Assembly: GCA_012729675.1 (NCBI GenBank)
Contig: JAAYCR010000019.1
Coordinates: 1-64,000, forward strand
Direction of reading: 5' to 3'
From: Phycisphaerae bacterium
GTDB taxonomy: Bacteria > Planctomycetota > Phycisphaerae > Sedimentisphaerales > Anaerohalosphaeraceae
Length of the DNA: 64,000 nt
A program made the position numbers and the translations under genes. Under the pieces are notes generated by a model. That model had not been told where the DNA came from. It did no database searches and worked only from the letters and a program-made list of their open reading frames with translations. Shown in pieces: positions 2,459 through 61,970 of this stretch (position 1 is the stretch's first letter; each line of letters starts with the position of its first letter).

Positions 2459-3898
2459 TTACAGCTCTACATCATCAAACAGTTGCATTTGGTGTCGTTC
2501 CATCGAAAACTTGTTCGCGACCGAACTGACGGGAATCTTATATTGTCCGCTCCAGCAGGCCGTACAGTAATGATCCGGCGGCAGCGACGCCGACGCCAGC
2601 ATCCCCTCTATCGACAAGTACCCGATGCTGTCCACTTCCAGAAAATCCCGAATTTCAGGCATCGTCTTTTTCTGATTGGCCAGCAACTCGCCATACGTCG
2701 GAAAATCCACCCCGTAAAAACACGGATGTTTGACCGGCGGACAGGCCACTCGCATGTGCACCTCTTTGGCGCCCGCCTGCCGCAGCGAACGAATCTTTCC
2801 GCGTGTGGTTGTTCCGCGCACGACCGAATCGTCAACCACGACGACCCGTTTTCCCTTGACCGCATTCTTGACCACCGTCAGCTTGAGCCGCACCGCAAGA
2901 TCACGCATCATCTGCGACGGCGCAATAAACGTCCGCCCGATGTAATGGCTTCGGACAAACCCCATATCAAACGGGATGCCGCTTTGCGCCGCGTATCCGA
3001 TGGCCGCCGATGTCCCCGAGTCCGGCACAGGGATCACCACGTCGGCGTCAATAAAATGCTCCCGCGCCAGTTGCGCCCCGCAGCGTTTGCGTACCTCGTG
3101 GACGTTGTCACCGAAGATCGTGCTGCTCTGCTTGGCAAAATACACATGCTCAAAGATGCAATGCCCCGGCGTAATCGTGCCCGGCGTTACAAAAAATCGA
3201 CTCGACAGGCCGTTGCGATCCAGCGTCACGATCTCGCCCGGCTCCACGTCGCGCAGATACACGGCGTCAATGGCGTCCAGGGCACAGGTCTCGCTGGCCA
3301 AGCAGTACGCCCCTTCCGGTGTTTGCCCGATGCACAGCGGCCGTATTCCGTAGGGGTCGCGCGCCGCCTCGATCCTGTCCGGAAACAAAAACAGCAGCGA
3401 ATACGCCCCCTGCAAATGGTTCAAGACGTGCCCCAGCGGATCCGGCTTGCTGACGTGCGAAGGCTTGGCCATCAGGTGTACAATGATCTCGATGTCGTTG
3501 GTGGTTTTAAAGATCGCGCCGTAAGCCTCATATTCATCCCGCAGCAGCGAGGCATTAATGAGGTTGCCGTTGTGCGCGACCGCCACCTGCCCGCGCGAAT
3601 ACTCGCTCAAAAACGGCTGAGCGTTGCACAGGTTGCTCGACCCGCTCGTCGAATACCGCACATGCCCGATGGCCACCGGATTCTCCAGACGTTCCAGAAT
3701 CCCGCGCCCGGCCCGAAACACACGGCTGACTTGTCCCATCCCGGAAAAACAATTGATGTAGTCTCCGTCGCTGGTGGCGATACCCGCCGATTCCTGCCCG
3801 CGATGCTGAAGACTGTGCATCGCAAAATAGGTTTTATGAACCGCCTGCGGATCTCCGTAAATACCAAATATCCCGCATTCTTCTTTTTTATCTCTCAT
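2459..3898 (-). CDS. purF: Amidophosphoribosyltransferase
   Basis: PurF transfers the amide nitrogen of glutamine to PRPP, the committed step of purine synthesis. The reading frame stays open to 4099, but the ATG at 3898 is chosen: it has GAGG upstream, lies just downstream of a good promoter (3938-3966), gives the normal length of 479 residues, and puts the nucleophilic Cys at position 8 after a short propeptide, as in Bacillus-type enzymes. The glutaminase domain comes first (SLQHRGQESAG motif), then the phosphoribosyltransferase domain with the PRPP loop VVVVDDSVVRGTT. C-terminal cysteines (CFYG, CTACWSG) match the iron-sulfur type of PurF. purM follows after three bases. Confidence 0.97.
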   Translation of the reverse strand: MRDKKEECGIFGIYGDPQAVHKTYFAMHSLQHRGQESAGIATSDGDYINCFSGMGQVSRVFRAGRGILERLENPVAIGHVRYSTSGSSNLCNAQPFLSEYSRGQVAVAHNGNLINASLLRDEYEAYGAIFKTTNDIEIIVHLMAKPSHVSKPDPLGHVLNHLQGAYSLLFLFPDRIEAARDPYGIRPLCIGQTPEGAYCLASETCALDAIDAVYLRDVEPGEIVTLDRNGLSSRFFVTPGTITPGHCIFEHVYFAKQSSTIFGDNVHEVRKRCGAQLAREHFIDADVVIPVPDSGTSAAIGYAAQSGIPFDMGFVRSHYIGRTFIAPSQMMRDLAVRLKLTVVKNAVKGKRVVVVDDSVVRGTTTRGKIRSLRQAGAKEVHMRVACPPVKHPCFYGVDFPTYGELLANQKKTMPEIRDFLEVDSIGYLSIEGMLASASLPPDHYCTACWSGQYKIPVSSVANKFSMERHQMQLFDDVEL

Positions 3899-53742: not shown

Positions 53743-54129
53743 TCATCCCATCCGGAACACCGAATCATCGATCACCTGCTGGCAGTACAGGCACACCGAG
53801 TGCCGCGGGCCAACCGTTCGTCCGCAGCCCGGGCAGGCAATCGCCTTGCGCTGGTTCTTGCCGTCCAGCGTCCCGTCGCGCATATCGATCTCATACAGCT
53901 TGTCGTGGAGTTCCTGCACCGTCAGGCCGGTGCGCTGGCTGAGCAGCTCCCACAACGCCTCGCAAATCAGCAGCGTCTTAGCCAGATTTTCCTCCAGCAT
54001 CTTGACCGCCCGCTCGGCCCGATCCGCCCGGCTGGACGCACGCGATGCCTGACCGGACGCCATGGCCTCTCCCGCCGTCTGATTGCCCGCGATCTTGGCC
54101 ACCATTGCCATTCCAAATAATCCGTTCAT
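53743..54129 (-). CDS. Small zinc-ribbon protein
   Basis: A 128-residue protein. The N-terminal part is Ala-rich and polar (VAKIAGNQTAGEAMASGQAS), followed by a helical stretch (RADRAERAVKMLEENLAKTLLICEAL, about residues 35-60) and a C-terminal zinc ribbon CPGCGRTVGPRHSVCLYC (about 100-117). The ATG at 54129 has AAAGGAG eight bases upstream; the longer start at 54174 lacks one. Function unknown. Its promoter region borders the left copy of the 165-bp direct repeat. Confidence 0.8.
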   Translation of the reverse strand: MNGLFGMAMVAKIAGNQTAGEAMASGQASRASSRADRAERAVKMLEENLAKTLLICEALWELLSQRTGLTVQELHDKLYEIDMRDGTLDGKNQRKAIACPGCGRTVGPRHSVCLYCQQVIDDSVFRMG

Positions 54130-54209
54130 TGCGATACTCCTTTCGTCGAATAGAATAGTGTTTATGCATTTCATACTCCAAAACGCCTCTCACCTCAAGC
54201 AAAAACTGC

Positions 54210-54374
54210 CTCGGCCGACGCTTGCAATTGGCGCGGATATCGGCTATCCTGTCAGCATGACCGCCATCATTACCCAGCCGGATACCGTCGAAAAGCTGAG
54301 CATCCTCAGTGCCGACGCCCGGTACGATCCGGCCTGTGCCTGCGGCTCGCCCCAGGACGAACACCGCCGCCGCA
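54210..54374 (+). repeat. Left copy of 165-bp direct repeat
   Basis: Matches 58232-58396 without gaps, with about 11 differences by eye (93 percent identity). It carries the upstream region and first 39 codons of the radical SAM gene whose intact copy starts at 58279. Weaker similarity may extend to about 54411. Confidence 0.9.
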
Positions 54375-54412
54375 TCCAGCCGCGTCCGGCCCCGGATGGC
54401 GGGTCGATCTGA
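54257..54412 (+). pseudogene. Truncated 5' copy of the radical SAM gene
   Basis: The 51-codon frame starts MTAIITQPDTVEKLSILSAD like the full gene at 58279 and follows it for 39 codons, with changes such as Arg22 for Gln, Pro25 for Leu and Pro32 for Thr. It then diverges and stops at 54410, before the CxxxCxxC cluster. A product could not be a radical SAM enzyme. The protease gene starts 13 bases later. Confidence 0.88.
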
Positions 54413-54425
54413 CAAGGAAATTGCT

Positions 54426-55940
54426 ATGAAAAAAGGACTGATTTGTGTTGTGTTGGTGTTCTTAAGCCTGTTGGCTTTCGGATGGATGCAGGCGTATCGG
54501 GCGATAACGTGGAAACCGGCCGCGCCGCACATCAATGAGGACGCGATTGTCTATATTTTGAGAATAGCACTTCAGAATGAATCTCAAAGCGGGCTTCAAT
54601 ATAAAGGGTTGAGTATCGGATTTGCAGTCGGGGACGGCCGCTATATTGTCACCGCGGCACACTGTGTTCGTGAGTTTGAAACCACCCGGGGGATGCTGTA
54701 TTACCCATCAGTCATCAGTCCGTATTATGGCGATATTGTGGCCGCCAAGCTCGTCGCTATTGACCACGAAAACGATATCGCCATCTTGGAGGCTGACTGG
54801 GACGTACACCCCGCGCTGCAGCTTGAACCAAGCGACGCATGGAAAACCGCAAGCAGGTTGGTCATGGCAACCTATCCGCCCCCCAGCGAGGAACATGGCG
54901 GCAACGGCAGCATCAGCCACGCCCTGCTGACTGAGACAACAAGGAAGGTTACACTTGTCGATACGGCAGGCGTGAAGAAGCAAAAAGTCATATCAGCCTC
55001 CCCGATTCGTTATCCCGGTCCCGGCTGGAGCGGCTCACCGTTTATTGTGCCCGAAACGGGAAATGTTGCGGGATTGATGGCAATCGTCGGGACGGAAAAG
55101 GGACGTTTCAATTCAACAGTGCGCTACAGTTCCGGTCCTGATGTGGATGCGATTCGACAGTTGTTCGAGGCCAACTCGCTTTGTTATCAGTCAACGGGAC
55201 TTCCCGTTCCCGAGATGAGCCGCAAAGAAGAATTCAAACAAATACTAAGCTTTTTTGACGTCTTTACAAAAGACCAGACTCAGATGCCGGATCGGGTCAA
55301 ACAAGTGTGTGCAGATTTTCCGGACACGTTCGCTTTTTATATGATAGCCGGTTTTTTTCTGAACGAGCCGAATCTCCCGACGGACTATTTTCAGAGGCTG
55401 ACCAATATGGCCCCCGAAGATCCTTTTGCTCACGCCGCCAGCGGGATCTTGCGCTGGGCCATGAAAGATAATCTTCCGCAGGCCGCGGCAGACTTTAAGC
55501 GTGCCGCGGAATTGGATACGGAGAATCTCTTTGCTCACAACGTGCATTTGCAGATGCTGGTGATGACAGATCCGAATGCGGCCGAGATTCTGGCGCAGGA
55601 CCTGATTGCGCGCTGGCCTCAGGAGGCACAATTCTGGTTCGAATACGCCCGGCTGCTGAGGAATCAAAACAGGCTAAGCGAAGAACTGCCGATGATTCAA
55701 AAGGCCATCGCATTGGCACAGTCCGATAATATCCCATACCTGTATCAGCGTCATCTGGCCGACTCCCTTGCGGCCAATGGGCTTCACGATGCCGCCGAAC
55801 AGGCGTACGAGACACTGTTTGAAGTTCACTCCTGTACAAGGTGCCGGGCCGCATACGCACAGTTTTTAGAGAAAATCGGCAAGCCTGAACAGGCCGAAGA
55901 GGTCCGTCTCATAGATGCCCCCCAACCCGACTCCCCCTGA
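54426..55940 (+). CDS. Trypsin-like serine protease with TPR domain
   Basis: A 504-residue exported or membrane-anchored protein with an N-terminal hydrophobic segment (residues 4-20). Residues about 60-230 are an S1 (trypsin/DegP-like) domain with a full triad: His79 in VTAAHC, Asp117 in HENDIAILEA and Ser202 in GPGWSGSP. There is no PDZ domain. Residues about 320-490 form TPR-like helix pairs (AAADFKRAAELDTENLFAH, WFEYARLLRNQNRLSEELPMIQKAI, AEQAYETLFEVHSCTRCRAAYAQFL). AAGGAAA precedes the ATG at 54426. It opens the 3.9-kb block bracketed by direct repeats. Relatives cleave exported proteins; its substrate is unknown. Confidence 0.82.
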   Translation: MKKGLICVVLVFLSLLAFGWMQAYRAITWKPAAPHINEDAIVYILRIALQNESQSGLQYKGLSIGFAVGDGRYIVTAAHCVREFETTRGMLYYPSVISPYYGDIVAAKLVAIDHENDIAILEADWDVHPALQLEPSDAWKTASRLVMATYPPPSEEHGGNGSISHALLTETTRKVTLVDTAGVKKQKVISASPIRYPGPGWSGSPFIVPETGNVAGLMAIVGTEKGRFNSTVRYSSGPDVDAIRQLFEANSLCYQSTGLPVPEMSRKEEFKQILSFFDVFTKDQTQMPDRVKQVCADFPDTFAFYMIAGFFLNEPNLPTDYFQRLTNMAPEDPFAHAASGILRWAMKDNLPQAAADFKRAAELDTENLFAHNVHLQMLVMTDPNAAEILAQDLIARWPQEAQFWFEYARLLRNQNRLSEELPMIQKAIALAQSDNIPYLYQRHLADSLAANGLHDAAEQAYETLFEVHSCTRCRAAYAQFLEKIGKPEQAEEVRLIDAPQPDSP

Positions 55941-56063
55941 AATGACCAAAACATCGCGGCCTGCCTTTTGTCCGATTTGCGAAAATATTTGTCTGGATTT
56001 CTGCAAATAATTCCTCATAATATTCAAAATAGTGTGTTACAATTTTCTGCCCGGAGCGTCTTA

Positions 56064-56091
56064 ACAGGAAACAGGACAAATTAGAAACCGG
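56064..56091. repeat. Heptamer-phased repeat
   Basis: ACAGGAA, ACAGGAC, AAATTAG, AAACCGG. A 14-base match (CAAATTAGAAACCG) recurs at 56915-56928, at the end of the next gene. The rest of the 288-base spacer shows nothing recognisable. Confidence 0.5.
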
Positions 56092-56228
56092 CACAAATAA
56101 AGATAAAAGGAATGAGGAATATTCGTTTCGATGTACCGCGTTGTTCAAAATACGTCTGCCGTTTCCGAATCGATAAGGGCACGTTGTAACAAACAAGGAT
56201 AACCAAACTGAATAACGGAGAGAACTTT

Positions 56229-56921
56229 ATGAATCCATCATCAATGCTTTTGAGTGTTGAATTCAATGAAATCGCGCAACTGCTCATTTTTTTTGTGCCT
56301 GTATTGCTCTTTGCGATCTACAAAATCATCTCACGGGTGCTGAAACATCGCTATGCCAAAATGGTACTTGAAAAAGGGTTCGTCCCGAAACCTCGAACCG
56401 GCCCCAAAAAGCCCCGCTGGATCAGGAGCCTGTATATCGGCGTCTTTCTATTGCTGGTCTCCTCGCCGTTTCTGATCAATTACATCACAACAGCAATCGA
56501 TCAACGCGATGCCATGGAAATGCCGCTCTATCTGTTCAGCGTTATCCCCTTTGCCGTTGGCATTGCATATATCCTCCGCGGCCTGCTCAAACGCAAAGAC
56601 CATATCAGAACCCTCGCCCTGAAAAACGCCGTACCCTTCGAGCAGGTGTATGCCCCTCTGCCCTGGATCATTGCACTGGCCATCGGCATCCCGCTGCTCG
56701 GCTATGCAGTCGTCATCTATCTGCTTTGCTTTTTTGCGGATTTTGCTTCTTTGCCGTGGACTCCGCCTTATAGCTATGAACGTCTCCCGCTGATTGTCGC
56801 CATCCCAGGCGGCATGTTCACCCTATACGGCCTCCTGACGGTGTGCTTTGGACGAAAAAAATCAAGTCCAATGCCATTATCTGAAAAACAGGCACAGCCA
56901 ACCTGTCTTGAGGCAAATTAG
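56229..56921 (+). CDS. Membrane protein, unknown function
   Basis: A 230-residue protein with about five membrane segments: near residues 15-32, 77-95, 108-127, 148-172 and 186-208. Basic stretches (KHRYAKMV, KPRTGPKKPRW) follow the first segment and should be cytoplasmic. I do not recognise the family. A GGAG lies nine bases before the ATG. It begins a run of three small membrane-protein genes and a lipoprotein gene with spacings of 26, 70 and 39 bases, likely one operon. Confidence 0.72.
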   Translation: MNPSSMLLSVEFNEIAQLLIFFVPVLLFAIYKIISRVLKHRYAKMVLEKGFVPKPRTGPKKPRWIRSLYIGVFLLLVSSPFLINYITTAIDQRDAMEMPLYLFSVIPFAVGIAYILRGLLKRKDHIRTLALKNAVPFEQVYAPLPWIIALAIGIPLLGYAVVIYLLCFFADFASLPWTPPYSYERLPLIVAIPGGMFTLYGLLTVCFGRKKSSPMPLSEKQAQPTCLEAN

Positions 56922-56947
56922 AAACCGACCTCGATAAGGAGATATAA

Positions 56948-57316
56948 ATGCGTAAACTTGCGTTCGGTTGTATTCTGGTACTTGCGGCGATCTGTGTGTG
57001 GGGACTGATGTCGTCCAACGTGTCCATCCAGATCAACGGCCAGGAGGTCCACGGCCCGCTTAAAACGGTTGTCGGCATGTGGGGGCTTATCATCACCACG
57101 GTTGTTCTGTTCTGTGTGGCCATCCTCTTGGCGTTTGTGTTTGCCGGCGTCGGGCTTGTTATGCTGGGCGCACTGGCGATTGTCGGGCTTATTCTTGCAG
57201 GGACGGCCTTTCCGTTTCTGCTGCCGTTGCTGATTCCGCTGTTTGTCGTATGGGTGTTCTGTGCAGGAATGCGCCGCGGCAGGCTCAATCGTAATAATCT
57301 GCCGACGACTCACTGA
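56948..57316 (+). CDS. Small membrane protein, unknown function
   Basis: A 122-residue protein. The N-terminal hydrophobic segment (residues 5-22) may be a signal anchor, followed by SSNVSIQINGQEVHGPLKT, a polar stretch probably outside the membrane, and then two long hydrophobic segments (about 43-72 and 75-105) and a basic tail. AAGGAGA precedes the ATG. No family recognised. Confidence 0.7.
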   Translation: MRKLAFGCILVLAAICVWGLMSSNVSIQINGQEVHGPLKTVVGMWGLIITTVVLFCVAILLAFVFAGVGLVMLGALAIVGLILAGTAFPFLLPLLIPLFVVWVFCAGMRRGRLNRNNLPTTH

Positions 57317-57386
57317 ACGGGAAGCGAGGTCATGGGATGAATCGGTTTTTACGGAATGAATCACGGGACTTTTTGAGGAGTCTAAA

Positions 57387-57650
57387 ATGACACAACGATT
57401 AATCGCTCGGCTATGCCAATGGGTTATGATCCTCGCGGGGATCATCTTCATGTTTTCCGTTTTCGCTGTCCCGCGATTTGCGACCGCGTATGCCGCGGCC
57501 GATATGCCGCTGCCATGGTACCTGAAAGTGACATTTGCTTTTAGCGGCATGATGTTAGAATACAGCTGGTTTTTAGTTCAATTTTATCTTCTTCTGTTTG
57601 CACTGATAGTGGTATGGAGTTTCACTACGAAATCCCCCCGGACAAAATAG
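57387..57650 (+). CDS. Small membrane protein with GspF-like pattern
   Basis: An 87-residue protein with two hydrophobic segments (about 12-28 and 53-80). The central VPRFATAYAAADMPLPWYLKV resembles the periplasmic linker of type II secretion/type IV pilus GspF proteins (a Pro-X-Phe followed by a Leu-Pro pair before the next helix). The match is short and could be chance. It has TGAGGAG before the ATG. Confidence 0.6.
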   Translation: MTQRLIARLCQWVMILAGIIFMFSVFAVPRFATAYAAADMPLPWYLKVTFAFSGMMLEYSWFLVQFYLLLFALIVVWSFTTKSPRTK

Positions 57651-57689
57651 AGGACTCCACAGAGTACTGAACTTTCAAAGGAGAGACAA

Positions 57690-58187
57690 ATGCGGCATTT
57701 AATGATTGCGACAATGTGTTTACTGGGACTCAGCATCGCGGGCTGCTCGGTTTACGTAGAGACTGAAAGCAGCGGCCCGGACAACCGAAGCAACTTTCCC
57801 GTAGGGCAGCCCGACGACCGCGCGACGCTGATGGAAATTGATGCGGCCGCCAACCTGTCTTTTGACAGCGAAAGGAATAAAACGCTTACCGCCATCGCGT
57901 CGCGGCCGTATTTGTCTGCTCGGGCACAGAATTACCTGGTAACAAAGGGCGTGCGGTCCCTGGACTTTGAGTCGTCCCGGCTTAATGTGATGCTGGCACT
58001 GGTGAACAACCCGCATTTCCTGGCCGAAGGCAAACTGGCCGTTCTGGAGAACATCAATATGCTGTCATTCAGCAGCAGCCAGACGAAAGTACTGGAGGCG
58101 ATCAACCGGCGGGGGTATGTCCCTGAAGAACGTCAGTTATATGCAGAACCCCCGTCCTATCCTGACCCCGAAATCCAGCAGCCCTGA
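57690..58187 (+). CDS. Small lipoprotein, unknown function
   Basis: A 165-residue precursor with lipobox SIAGC (Cys19). The mature part holds short repeated helices (NKTLTAIASRPYLSARAQNYLV, RLNVMLALVNNPHFLAEGKLAVL, QTKVLEAINRRGYV), about 30 residues each, that look alike and may form a small helical-repeat domain. AAAGGAGAG precedes the ATG. It is the last gene before the right-hand 165-bp repeat. Confidence 0.78.
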   Translation: MRHLMIATMCLLGLSIAGCSVYVETESSGPDNRSNFPVGQPDDRATLMEIDAAANLSFDSERNKTLTAIASRPYLSARAQNYLVTKGVRSLDFESSRLNVMLALVNNPHFLAEGKLAVLENINMLSFSSSQTKVLEAINRRGYVPEERQLYAEPPSYPDPEIQQP

Positions 58188-58231
58188 TAAAAATTCGTAG
58201 ATTCATTGCCGTCAGCAAAGCCCAAAAACGG

Positions 58232-58396
58232 CTCGGCCGACGCTTGCATTTTCCGCGGATATCGGCTATCCTGTCGGCATGACCGCAATCATTACCCAGC
58301 CGGATACCGTCGAAAAGCTGAGCATCCTCAGTGCTGACGCTCAGTACGATCTGGCCTGTGCCTGCGGCTCGACGCAGGACGAACACCGCCGCCGCA
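58232..58396 (+). repeat. Right copy of 165-bp direct repeat
   Basis: Collinear with 54210-54374. It forms the upstream region and first 39 codons of the intact radical SAM gene. Confidence 0.9.
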
Positions 58397-59415
58397 GCCC
58401 CGACGGCAAATGGATCTATCCCGTCACCCTGCCCGACGGCGGCAAAGGCAGCATCTTCAAAATCCTCCTGTCCAACGTCTGCCGTAACGACTGCAAATAC
58501 TGTCCCTTACGGCACGATCAGGACATCCGCCGCTGCTCCCTCGAGGCCGAGGAGACCGTGCGGCTGTTCTGGGACTACTACACGCAGGGCAAGGTCTTCG
58601 GCCTGTTCGTCAGTTCCGGCGTCATCGGCACCCCCGACGCCACGATGGAACGCATCAACGCCATCGCCCGCATCCTCCGCACCCGCTACCGTTTTCGCGG
58701 CTATATCCACCTCAAGGTCATCCCCGGCGCCTCGACGGCCGCCGTCGAAGAGGCCGTGCGCCTCGCCTCGGCCGTGTCGCTGAACATCGAGGCCCCCGGC
58801 GCCGAATTTCTGGCCAAAGTCTCCGACCAAAAGGACTTCCTCCGCGACATCATCGCCCCCATCAAGCACATCAGCCAACTGGTACAAGAGCCGAACGCCT
58901 TTCGCCGCCGCGTCCAACAAACGACGCAATTTGTCGTCGGGGCCGCCGGCGAGACCGACCGCCGCATCGTCCAATATATGGAAGGCCTCTATCATCGGCT
59001 CAAGATGCACCGCATCTACTTCAGCGCCTACCAAGCCGGCTTGGGCGCCCCCGACCTACCCGGCGAACACGGCGACAGCCCCGCCGACCGCCTCACCCGC
59101 GAGCACCGGCTGTATCAAGTGGACTTTTTGATGCGAAAATACGGCTTCCACGATGCCGAAATCCCCTTTGACGACCACAACCGCCTGCCGCTGGACAAAG
59201 ACCCCAAAGAGGCCTGGGCCGACCTGCACCCCGAACAGTTTCCCGTCGATGTCAACCGCGCCGACCGCCAGACCCTCCTCCGCGTCCCCGGCCTTGGCCC
59301 CCTGACCGTCCGCACCCTCCTCAAACGCCGCCAACAGGCCCGCCTGACGACCATTGCCGACATCGGAAAACCCGGAAAACTGCTCCGCAAAGCAGAAAAA
59401 TACCTCACCTTCTAA
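58279..59415 (+). CDS. Radical SAM protein, putative DNA modification/repair type
   Basis: A 378-residue protein. The iron-sulfur Cys triad is Cys68, Cys72 and Cys75 in NVCRNDCKYC. The barrel continues with GLFVSSGVIGTPDATMERI, YIHLKVIPGAS and LNIEAPG, and residues about 325-365 form a helix-hairpin-helix (ADRQTLLRVPGLGPLTVRTLL), a DNA-binding module. This matches the family annotated as putative DNA modification/repair radical SAM protein, normally next to a DUF4130 partner related to DNA glycosylases; no partner is adjacent here, where a convergent LRR gene ends two bases away. Its 5' end is duplicated at 54210. Confidence 0.88.
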   Translation: MTAIITQPDTVEKLSILSADAQYDLACACGSTQDEHRRRSPDGKWIYPVTLPDGGKGSIFKILLSNVCRNDCKYCPLRHDQDIRRCSLEAEETVRLFWDYYTQGKVFGLFVSSGVIGTPDATMERINAIARILRTRYRFRGYIHLKVIPGASTAAVEEAVRLASAVSLNIEAPGAEFLAKVSDQKDFLRDIIAPIKHISQLVQEPNAFRRRVQQTTQFVVGAAGETDRRIVQYMEGLYHRLKMHRIYFSAYQAGLGAPDLPGEHGDSPADRLTREHRLYQVDFLMRKYGFHDAEIPFDDHNRLPLDKDPKEAWADLHPEQFPVDVNRADRQTLLRVPGLGPLTVRTLLKRRQQARLTTIADIGKPGKLLRKAEKYLTF

Positions 59416-59417
59416 AG

Positions 59418-61970
59418 TTATCGGGAATAATGTAATGTTACGTCGCTGCTTTGTAGATTTTTAAGCCTGCCTATCTCGGCCGGCAAAGTCGTCAATGGAT
59501 TATCCAAAAGCGTGATTCTTTCCAGTTTTGTGAGATTGCCGATGTGCGGTGGAATTTCAGTCAGATAGTTGCCTTTCAGGCAGAGCTGCTTCAATTCCGT
59601 TAACGTCCAAAGCTCCGGGGGCAACGACTCCAGTTGCATGTCTTCGAGGAAAAGATATTCTAAATACTTCAGATTGCCGATCTCGGTCGGCAATGAGGTC
59701 AATGGGATCTGACTGAGTGCAAGTTTTGTCAACTCCGTTAAGGTAAATATCTCCGGCGGCAGGGAAGTCAGTTGCGTACCATTAAGATAAAGCAGCATTA
59801 ATTTCGTCAGGTTGCCGATCTCCGGCGGAAGGACCGTGATTGGGTTTTGGTCAAGAGTGAGCGTTCTCAGGTTGGTCAGATTCCATATCTCCGGGGGCAG
59901 GGAAGTCAACTGATTTTGCCCGATACCAAGATTTTCCAGGTGTATCAGGCGGCCGATCTCCGGCGGCAGCGACGTCAGTTGATTCCTATTTACCCAAAGC
60001 AGCTTTAATTTTGTCAGGTTGCCGATTTCCGGCGAAAGAACGGTGATTGGGTTGTGGCCAAGCACAAGCTCTCTCAGGTTGGTCAGATTCCATATCTCCG
60101 GGGGCAGGGAAGTCAACTGATTTTGCCCGAGATGAAGTCGTTCCAGATGGTTCAGGCGGCCGATCTCCGGCGGCAGCGACGTCAGTTGATTACTACTTAC
60201 CCAAAGCAGCTTTAATTTTGTCAGGTTGCCGATTTCCGGCGGCAGCGAAGTTAGATTTGTCTGGAGCATAAGACTTTCCAGATTGATCAGATTGCCGATC
60301 TCCGGCGGCAGCGAAGCCAGCTTTGCCTGGAGCATAAGACGCTCCAGATTGACCAGATTGCCGATTTCTGGCGGTACTGAATCCAATGAATTGCCGCCGA
60401 ACGATAGATGCTTTAACTCAGTAAGATTGCCGATTTCAGGCGGCAGTGAAGTCAGTTGGTTGTTAGAAAGATCAAGTCGCGTCAGATTCGTAAGATTCCA
60501 AAGTTCCGGTGGAAAGGTGGTCAGTTGGCTTTTCCCAAGCGAAAGGCTGGTCAGTTTCGTCAGATTTCCGATTTCGGGAGGAAGAAAAGTTAGTTCGTTT
60601 TCCCCCAATTGAATGCTCTCTAAATTCGCTGCGTACCCAATACCGGTCAAATCGTTGATAGATAAATTCGCTGTTGGATGTAACCGTGTCAGTTTGAGCA
60701 TCGCCGTCGGCCCCGGATCCATAATTCCCAGTTCGATTTCGATGGCCGCCTTAAGGTTCGCGTCCGGAAAATAGACCGGTACCTCGTCAGCCGTCTCCAT
60801 CACCGGATAAACCGTTTCAATGGCCGTCATCGCGGGATCCGCTGATGTTGGATCGGATTCGAGGCTATAGACAATCTTTGTCCCGGTTAATTGATTGAGT
60901 AATACAGGCAGCAGTTCAGAATAGAAATGCGCATCCAGTGGATTACCTTCAAGGTGTAAATCTGCCAACTGTGTTAAATTGCCGATCTCCGGCGGCAGTG
61001 AAATCAAACGATTATTGTCGAGTTCGAGGTTCGTTAAATTCCTCAAGTTTCCGATTTTCGCCGGCAATCCCTCCAATTGGTTGCCGGAAAGCCAAAGGTA
61101 TCGCAGCTTCGACAGATTACCGATCTCCGGCGGCACTGAGCTGAGTTGATTGTTGCGAATGTAGAGATGCTCCAGTTTCGTAAGTGCATAAGTCTCAGGC
61201 GGCAGTGACATCAGCTTGTTGTCACAAAGGAAGAGTTCAGAAAGATTGGTCAAGTACACTATCTCTGACGGCAGGGAGCGCAGTTGATTTCCGCCAAGTT
61301 CGAGCCGTTCCAGTTTTGTCAGGTTCCCGATCTCAGGCGGTACAGTCGTTAATTGGTTGCCCCTTGCTTCAAACCATGTCAATTTTGTCAATCCCCACAT
61401 CTCAGACGGCAGATCGCTCAGTCGATTGTAAGAAAGCCAGAGCGAAGTCAGTTCTTTCAGGTTGCCGATCTCTGCAGGAATCGAAGTTAGTTTGTTGCCA
61501 TAAAGGTAAAGAGTTTCCAACTTTATGAGGTTGCCGATCTCCGCTGGGATCGAAGTCAGTTCGTTAGCCGTCAGGACAAGTGTTTTCAAGCTCGCAAGTT
61601 TTCCGATTTCGGGCGGCAAAGAGGTTAGTTTATTGTCAGAGAGGTAGAGTGCCGTCAGGTTCGCAAGTTTGACGATGGCAGGCGGCAAAGAGGCTATTTT
61701 GTTGTAAGAGAGGTCAAGTGTTGTCAGGTTCGTCGCATACTCCAACCCGGTCAAATCTTCGATGGATTGTTTCGGTGCACGCAACTCTGTCAGCTTCAGC
61801 ATCGCCGCCGGGTCCGGATCGGTTACTCCCAGCGCCGCTTCGATGGCCGCTTTGAGATTTTTGTCCGGGATGTAAACAGGCTCACCCGCGGTCACGGCTT
61901 CGGTTTGTGCAAAAAGAATACCCGTGGCCGATACGGTGACAAGTAAAACCGCCGCTGCTCTTCTAAACAT
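59418..61970 (-). CDS. Exported leucine-rich-repeat protein
   Basis: An 850-residue precursor with signal peptide (cleavage near residue 20). It consists of two similar modules. Each starts with a VYIPDKNLKAAIEAALG-like header (about residues 31 and 400) that contains an AMLKLTEL segment and a DLTGLEYATNL segment, followed by 23-residue leucine-rich repeats of the type LTSLPPEIGNLTKLxxLxLxxN. There are about 13 repeats in the first module and 18 in the second. Such LRRs bind proteins or ligands outside the cell. The DNA of the repeats is very similar, so expansion by recombination is likely. It ends two bases from the convergent radical SAM gene. Confidence 0.92.
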   Translation of the reverse strand: MFRRAAAVLLVTVSATGILFAQTEAVTAGEPVYIPDKNLKAAIEAALGVTDPDPAAMLKLTELRAPKQSIEDLTGLEYATNLTTLDLSYNKIASLPPAIVKLANLTALYLSDNKLTSLPPEIGKLASLKTLVLTANELTSIPAEIGNLIKLETLYLYGNKLTSIPAEIGNLKELTSLWLSYNRLSDLPSEMWGLTKLTWFEARGNQLTTVPPEIGNLTKLERLELGGNQLRSLPSEIVYLTNLSELFLCDNKLMSLPPETYALTKLEHLYIRNNQLSSVPPEIGNLSKLRYLWLSGNQLEGLPAKIGNLRNLTNLELDNNRLISLPPEIGNLTQLADLHLEGNPLDAHFYSELLPVLLNQLTGTKIVYSLESDPTSADPAMTAIETVYPVMETADEVPVYFPDANLKAAIEIELGIMDPGPTAMLKLTRLHPTANLSINDLTGIGYAANLESIQLGENELTFLPPEIGNLTKLTSLSLGKSQLTTFPPELWNLTNLTRLDLSNNQLTSLPPEIGNLTELKHLSFGGNSLDSVPPEIGNLVNLERLMLQAKLASLPPEIGNLINLESLMLQTNLTSLPPEIGNLTKLKLLWVSSNQLTSLPPEIGRLNHLERLHLGQNQLTSLPPEIWNLTNLRELVLGHNPITVLSPEIGNLTKLKLLWVNRNQLTSLPPEIGRLIHLENLGIGQNQLTSLPPEIWNLTNLRTLTLDQNPITVLPPEIGNLTKLMLLYLNGTQLTSLPPEIFTLTELTKLALSQIPLTSLPTEIGNLKYLEYLFLEDMQLESLPPELWTLTELKQLCLKGNYLTEIPPHIGNLTKLERITLLDNPLTTLPAEIGRLKNLQSSDVTLHYSR

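Follow-up and report, generated by a model that had tools for sequence, protein, structure and literature searches.

The window (the 64,000-nucleotide stretch of DNA analysed here) contains the 5′ end of a radical SAM gene twice, in direct orientation, and the two copies enclose a block of accessory genes. We interpret the locus, which comes from one genome, as an insertion scar at the site of an ancestral divergent gene pair, of which the left copy of the repeat may be a captured promoter. The account that fits best, and that we hold on balance to be the probable one, is insertion of accessory DNA at the ancestral junction between a zinc-ribbon protein gene (ZnR) and the radical SAM gene, by recombination with homology on one side only.

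The repeat and the genes that it brackets

Each copy of the repeat is 176 nt long (Table 1). A repeat search of the window gave 91% ungapped identity between the two, and BLASTN of the window against itself aligned them with 92% identity over 178 columns (E = 5e-68); the local alignment score of 284 compares with a maximum of 28 in 100 shuffles. A preliminary description of this DNA had reported a 165-bp repeat with about 11 differences, and positions 54210–54374 indeed differ from the right copy by exactly 11 mismatches. Its assignment of the left copy to a truncated start of the radical SAM gene and of the right copy to the intact gene was also correct, as the first 39–40 codons match. Similarity between the copies is limited upstream by the sequence CAAAAAC and is lost downstream at about 54377, and extension past either limit was not significant at the DNA level. 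A weak echo in the predicted protein (I.P...PDGG, shuffle p about 0.001) may continue the likeness of the left copy up to 54406, where the DNA similarity is not significant. The repeat occurs at two places in the whole 2.8-Mb genome, both of them in the window, and when the window was aligned with itself, as had been proposed, the 64-kb self-comparison revealed no other repeat as large, apart from those internal to a leucine-rich repeat (LRR) gene. The latter (59421–61970, minus strand, 850 aa, with a 69-bp tandem repeat structure) adjoins the 3′ side of the radical SAM gene, and its GC3 of 0.57 suggests that it is accessory too.

Between the repeats lie 3,846 bp (54378–58223). Pfam matches and hydropathy agree with the gene content first described, namely a protease with TPR repeats, three small membrane proteins and a lipoprotein, and we infer that the products of the block are an envelope protease and small membrane partners for it. 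GC3 is 0.54–0.67 in the block genes, as against 0.75–0.82 in the DUF362, ZnR and radical SAM genes. The first 40 codons in the left copy run on into novel sequence to form a 51-codon open reading frame, the stop codon of which is followed after 13 bp by the ATG of the protease gene (54426), with AAGGA preceding that ATG. A short imperfect repeat (CAAATTAGAAACCG...) is found at 56077–56103, before memA, and again at 56914–56940, at the memA stop codon; it may be what is left of a lost paralogue, or a mark of the block having been put together in steps. In the flanks, the double-zinc-ribbon Pfam match of ZnR is weak and falls under the cut-off. The radical SAM protein matches TIGR03916 (rSAM_link_UDG) over nearly its full length with 297.3 bits, below the cut-off of 343.5; judged from its sequence, it is related to that family and is not a formal member of it.

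Table 1. Features of the repeat-flanked locus (positions in the window).
Feature	Position	Strand	Evidence or remarks
ZnR, zinc-ribbon protein gene; left neighbour, probable ancestral divergent partner of the radical SAM gene	53746..54129	-	Head-to-head homologues, 63% identity or lower
Left repeat copy	54202..54377	+	Radical SAM gene from candidate promoter to codon 40; decaying as coding sequence
Candidate promoter, left copy	54222..54250	+	TTGCAA-17-TATCCT, 6 bp before ATG; layout common to right copy, G003 and G001
51-codon ORF, begins as truncated radical SAM gene and continues as novel sequence	54257..54412	+	ATG 54257, TGA 54410-54412
Trypsin-like protease with TPR repeats, membrane-anchored, 504 aa	54426..55940	+	PF13365 (E = 1e-12), TPR_16; one N-terminal hydrophobic segment
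memA, membrane protein, 230 aa, about six hydrophobic segments	56229..56921	+	Hydropathy; without Pfam match
memB, small membrane protein, 122 aa	56948..57316	+	Hydropathy; homologues in G008 and G020
memC, small membrane protein, 87 aa	57387..57650	+	Hydropathy; sub-threshold DUF4064 match
Lipoprotein gene, 165 aa	57690..58187	+	Signal and LSIAGC lipobox, by eye
Right repeat copy	58224..58399	+	5′ part of the intact radical SAM gene with its candidate promoter
Candidate promoter, radical SAM gene	58244..58272	+	TTGCAT-17-TATCCT, 6 bp before ATG; layout shared by G003 and G001
Intact radical SAM gene, 378 aa	58279..59415	+	ATG 58279; resembles TIGR03916

The probable ancestral junction and the fate of the two copies

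The radical SAM gene is present in 33 of the 40 relatives and ZnR in 24. In nine genomes (G004, G007, G008, G009, G014, G020, G042, G045 and G054) the two genes stand head to head, with a gap of about 150–300 bp in six of these. Because the nine represent seven genera of the family, none of them the genus of the window, the adjacency is most likely ancestral in the family. The preliminary description had pointed to relatives with ZnR adjoining the radical SAM gene and a single copy of the repeat as a check on an insertion, and such relatives exist in several genera; none of 21 other radical SAM loci had its 5′ end duplicated. In the window 125 bp separate the left copy from ZnR, as in the empty sites, against 4.1 kb for the right copy, so that it is the left copy that occupies the ancestral position. 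The resemblance to G042 extends to a cluster of a TPR gene, S20 and RNase R near the ZnR/radical SAM pair, which is also found in the window in a different order.

The spacer between ZnR and the radical SAM gene holds a lipoprotein gene in G007 (L044:4549-5274) and a pair of small membrane-protein genes in G008 and G054 (L047:3670-4966 and L230:675-1852), and in these three filled spacers the radical SAM 5′ end is not duplicated. Since other small lipoprotein or membrane-protein genes thus lie there, the spacer seems to be receptive and to take in envelope-protein genes repeatedly. The repeat-flanked arrangement was not seen in the three same-genus species. G003 has its radical SAM gene after pfkA and ZnR on a separate contig; G001 has it after pilin-type genes, and ZnR was not found there; in G002 ZnR is present and the radical SAM gene was not detected. 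No radical SAM remnant lies next to ZnR in G003, G002 or G017.

When the differences between the copies were polarised with G003 and G001 as outgroups, the left copy proved to have acquired Q22R and L25P, and to differ at codon 40 as well, whereas in the right copy all coding changes that could be polarised, at codons 19 and 21, are synonymous. This contrast involves few sites (Fisher p = 0.10), and the weight is borne by the invariance of Q22 and L25 in 40 of 40 radical SAM homologues, which argues that the left copy is free of protein constraint. The preliminary description had reserved the case that relatives might all carry the same arrangement with both copies under purifying selection, which would have suggested a functional duplicated promoter and not an insertion scar; the left copy is instead without coding constraint. 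We conclude from these comparisons that the left copy is a decaying fragment at the ancestral position and the right copy the working gene. The copies agree at 112 of 120 coding positions, and each agrees with G003 and G001 at 92–94 of 120. The duplication is therefore younger than the split from these species and yet not recent, as had been surmised from the divergence of the copies.

Origin of the block and routes to the present arrangement

No full-length protease was found in the other genomes of the family that were searched, in which three weak matches cover the TPR part only. Relatives of the protease with 27–35% identity were present in 9 of 298 genomes of the class, all of other families, and at four of these loci tblastn detected no other block gene nearby. 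Members of the lipoprotein family were found in 13 of 40 relatives, in a genome context other than that of the radical SAM gene. A memA homologue was found in G022 only (38% identity) and memB homologues in G008 (49%) and G020 (39%), all in different neighbourhoods, and in no relative does any block gene adjoin the radical SAM gene. The idea that the block is a unit that moves together is not supported, the relatives of the protease, lipoprotein, memA and memB lying in unrelated places; the block looks as if it were assembled from separately distributed accessory genes, and this may have happened in steps. A phage or plasmid origin was rejected, as the protease has no relative among viral contigs or plasmids, and so was an origin as a defence system, for which PADLOC gives only weak matches to the protease domain. 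A scan of a collection of genome contigs for the protease gave no match.

According to the reading that we favour, ZnR and the radical SAM gene would originally have stood head to head, about 150–300 bp apart. Once this lineage had separated from its sampled congeners, DNA with accessory genes would have entered at the radical SAM gene by recombination; one junction would have formed through homology at the 5′ end of that gene and the other as an illegitimate join near codon 40. The outcome would have been a complete radical SAM gene on the right that has a promoter of its own and, on the left beside ZnR, a second promoter followed by 40 codons, so that the conserved gene was spared and the newcomers were supplied with a promoter. 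We infer this recombination route from an arrangement known from one genome. Its appeal is that one-sided homology plus an illegitimate join yields the observed topology in a single event, where tandem duplication with two deletions needs three.

Homology-facilitated illegitimate recombination has been proposed for displaced T6SS effector modules of Vibrio cholerae (PMC5361080), and it has been reported in E. coli conjugation (PMC3240628). The locus resembles its products in combining a conserved anchor, here the 176-bp repeat, with a new gene set and a truncated piece of the old gene alongside. In that process the other end joins without homology; here DNA similarity of the left copy ends at about 54377, and the weak protein echo may run on to 54406. 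Unlike in the T6SS case, a housekeeping-type gene would have served as anchor with its promoter and 5′ end, that gene remains intact, and the event itself is deduced from its outcome.

The same topology would result from tandem duplication of a segment holding the radical SAM gene and the block, or from local relocation in which another copy of the gene arose close to the first, followed by deletion of most of the left radical SAM gene and of the right copy of the block, a course of events that we regard as possible, if unlikely. The neighbourhood of the radical SAM gene has changed in G003 and G001, where it follows pfkA and pilin-type genes, and its ancestral rpsU–uvrB neighbours lie elsewhere in the genome studied here: uvrB, close to the radical SAM gene in several relatives, is on contig 85, and no radical SAM (3′) remnant was found by it. 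The right-hand flank of the gene is thus not the ancestral one, and relocation is a possibility for these reasons. The relocated radical SAM gene of G003 has GC-rich interspersed repeats of about 32–59 bp between it, pfkA and transketolase (L033:4324-4477, 3034-3067 and 2801-2832), which might have mediated the move in that species. Tandem duplication (merodiploidy) with later loss is known in Streptococcus pneumoniae (PMC3784515), and the locus shares with it two direct copies of a segment, one of them decaying. It differs in that the intervening DNA is accessory and never lies by the radical SAM gene in relatives, and in that at least two extra deletions are needed. Moreover, the full-length protease is without a homologue in the family, so that it must have been acquired under this reading too.

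A site-specific integrative element with its target in the radical SAM 5′ end is, in our judgement, improbable. Precedents are the dusA islands and SXT in prfC, which insert at gene 5′ ends, supply a promoter and N-terminus and carry integrases (PMC8409611). Such islands restore the target gene by means of a promoter that they bring along, and the insertion here likewise preserves the radical SAM gene, with candidate promoter and start on the inserted side. However, the known islands have an integrase, a directionality factor and defined att sites, whereas the present locus has a 176-bp repeat of 92% identity, no recombinase among the neighbouring genes, and a truncated copy that is of native sequence. 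In addition, no element was seen at the radical SAM gene in the other genomes examined, and the relatives of the block genes sit in unrelated places.

The preliminary description had spoken of insertion with duplication of the target. Insertion of accessory genes at the ZnR/radical SAM junction is upheld by the empty sites in relatives, and the part that has to be given up is duplication of the transposition type. Target duplications made by transposons are short, about 2–14 bp. The repeat of about 176 bp is too long for this, and a transposon or IS was rejected on its length together with the lack of terminal inverted repeats and of a transposase: no inverted pair of at least 20 nt joins the ends of the block, and no transposase, integrase or other recombinase family was detected among the proteins of the block and its neighbours, as had been noted from the outset. 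This is compatible with an enzyme that was lost or that acted in trans. No tRNA or known structured-RNA target is present at the site. Finally, a false join of two strains or loci in the assembly, which is fragmented (96 contigs), is highly improbable, given that both copies are well within a 72-kb contig of a genome that is 99.9% complete and 0.4% contaminated, that they differ by 8%, and that unrelated sequence, not a shared stretch, adjoins the end of the left copy.

A candidate promoter in the left copy

The layout TTGNNT-17-TATNNT-6-ATG is conserved in three species of the genus with a radical SAM gene, that of the window, G003 and G001, in which it takes the forms TTGCAT or TTGATT and TATCCT, TATCAT or TATGAT. 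The candidate in the left copy was not flagged by a generic consensus promoter scan, and the call is based on conservation, not on score. If the candidate is the promoter, transcription of the radical SAM gene would start at or beside the start codon. The right copy keeps the conserved candidate promoter layout together with an open reading frame that is predicted to be intact. With only about 50 bp of non-repeated sequence ahead of the protease ATG, the left copy suggests itself as the candidate promoter of the protease gene, and transcription from it may cover the 51-codon fragment as well as that gene, which lies behind it. An insertion scar and a duplicated promoter had been put forward as alternatives; they are not exclusive, in that the left copy retains the promoter layout conserved in the genus. 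A bolder reading, which we regard as possible but unlikely, is that the left copy is more than debris and represents a captured, near-leaderless promoter with a translated lead-in of 51 codons, which would couple the newly acquired envelope-protease genes to regulation of a DNA-repair-type radical SAM gene.

Upstream sequences of the radical SAM gene elsewhere in the family include a palindrome, GAACAAATGTTC, that resembles the Gram-positive LexA (SOS) box and is located 52–65 bp before the radical SAM start in two genera, represented by G009 (L042:11004) and G007 (L044:5423). It is absent upstream of the radical SAM gene in the window. A LexA-like palindrome would be in keeping with a function of this radical SAM family in DNA repair.

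The general process is already known, and the locus is an ordinary kind of genome-rearrangement scar. It is nevertheless a well-delimited case with a known empty site, in which accessory genes entered the chromosome, a mobile-element enzyme is not seen and the neighbouring gene is intact. If the promoter reading is true, partial duplication of a gene at the point of insertion would have wired the new genes into existing regulation.
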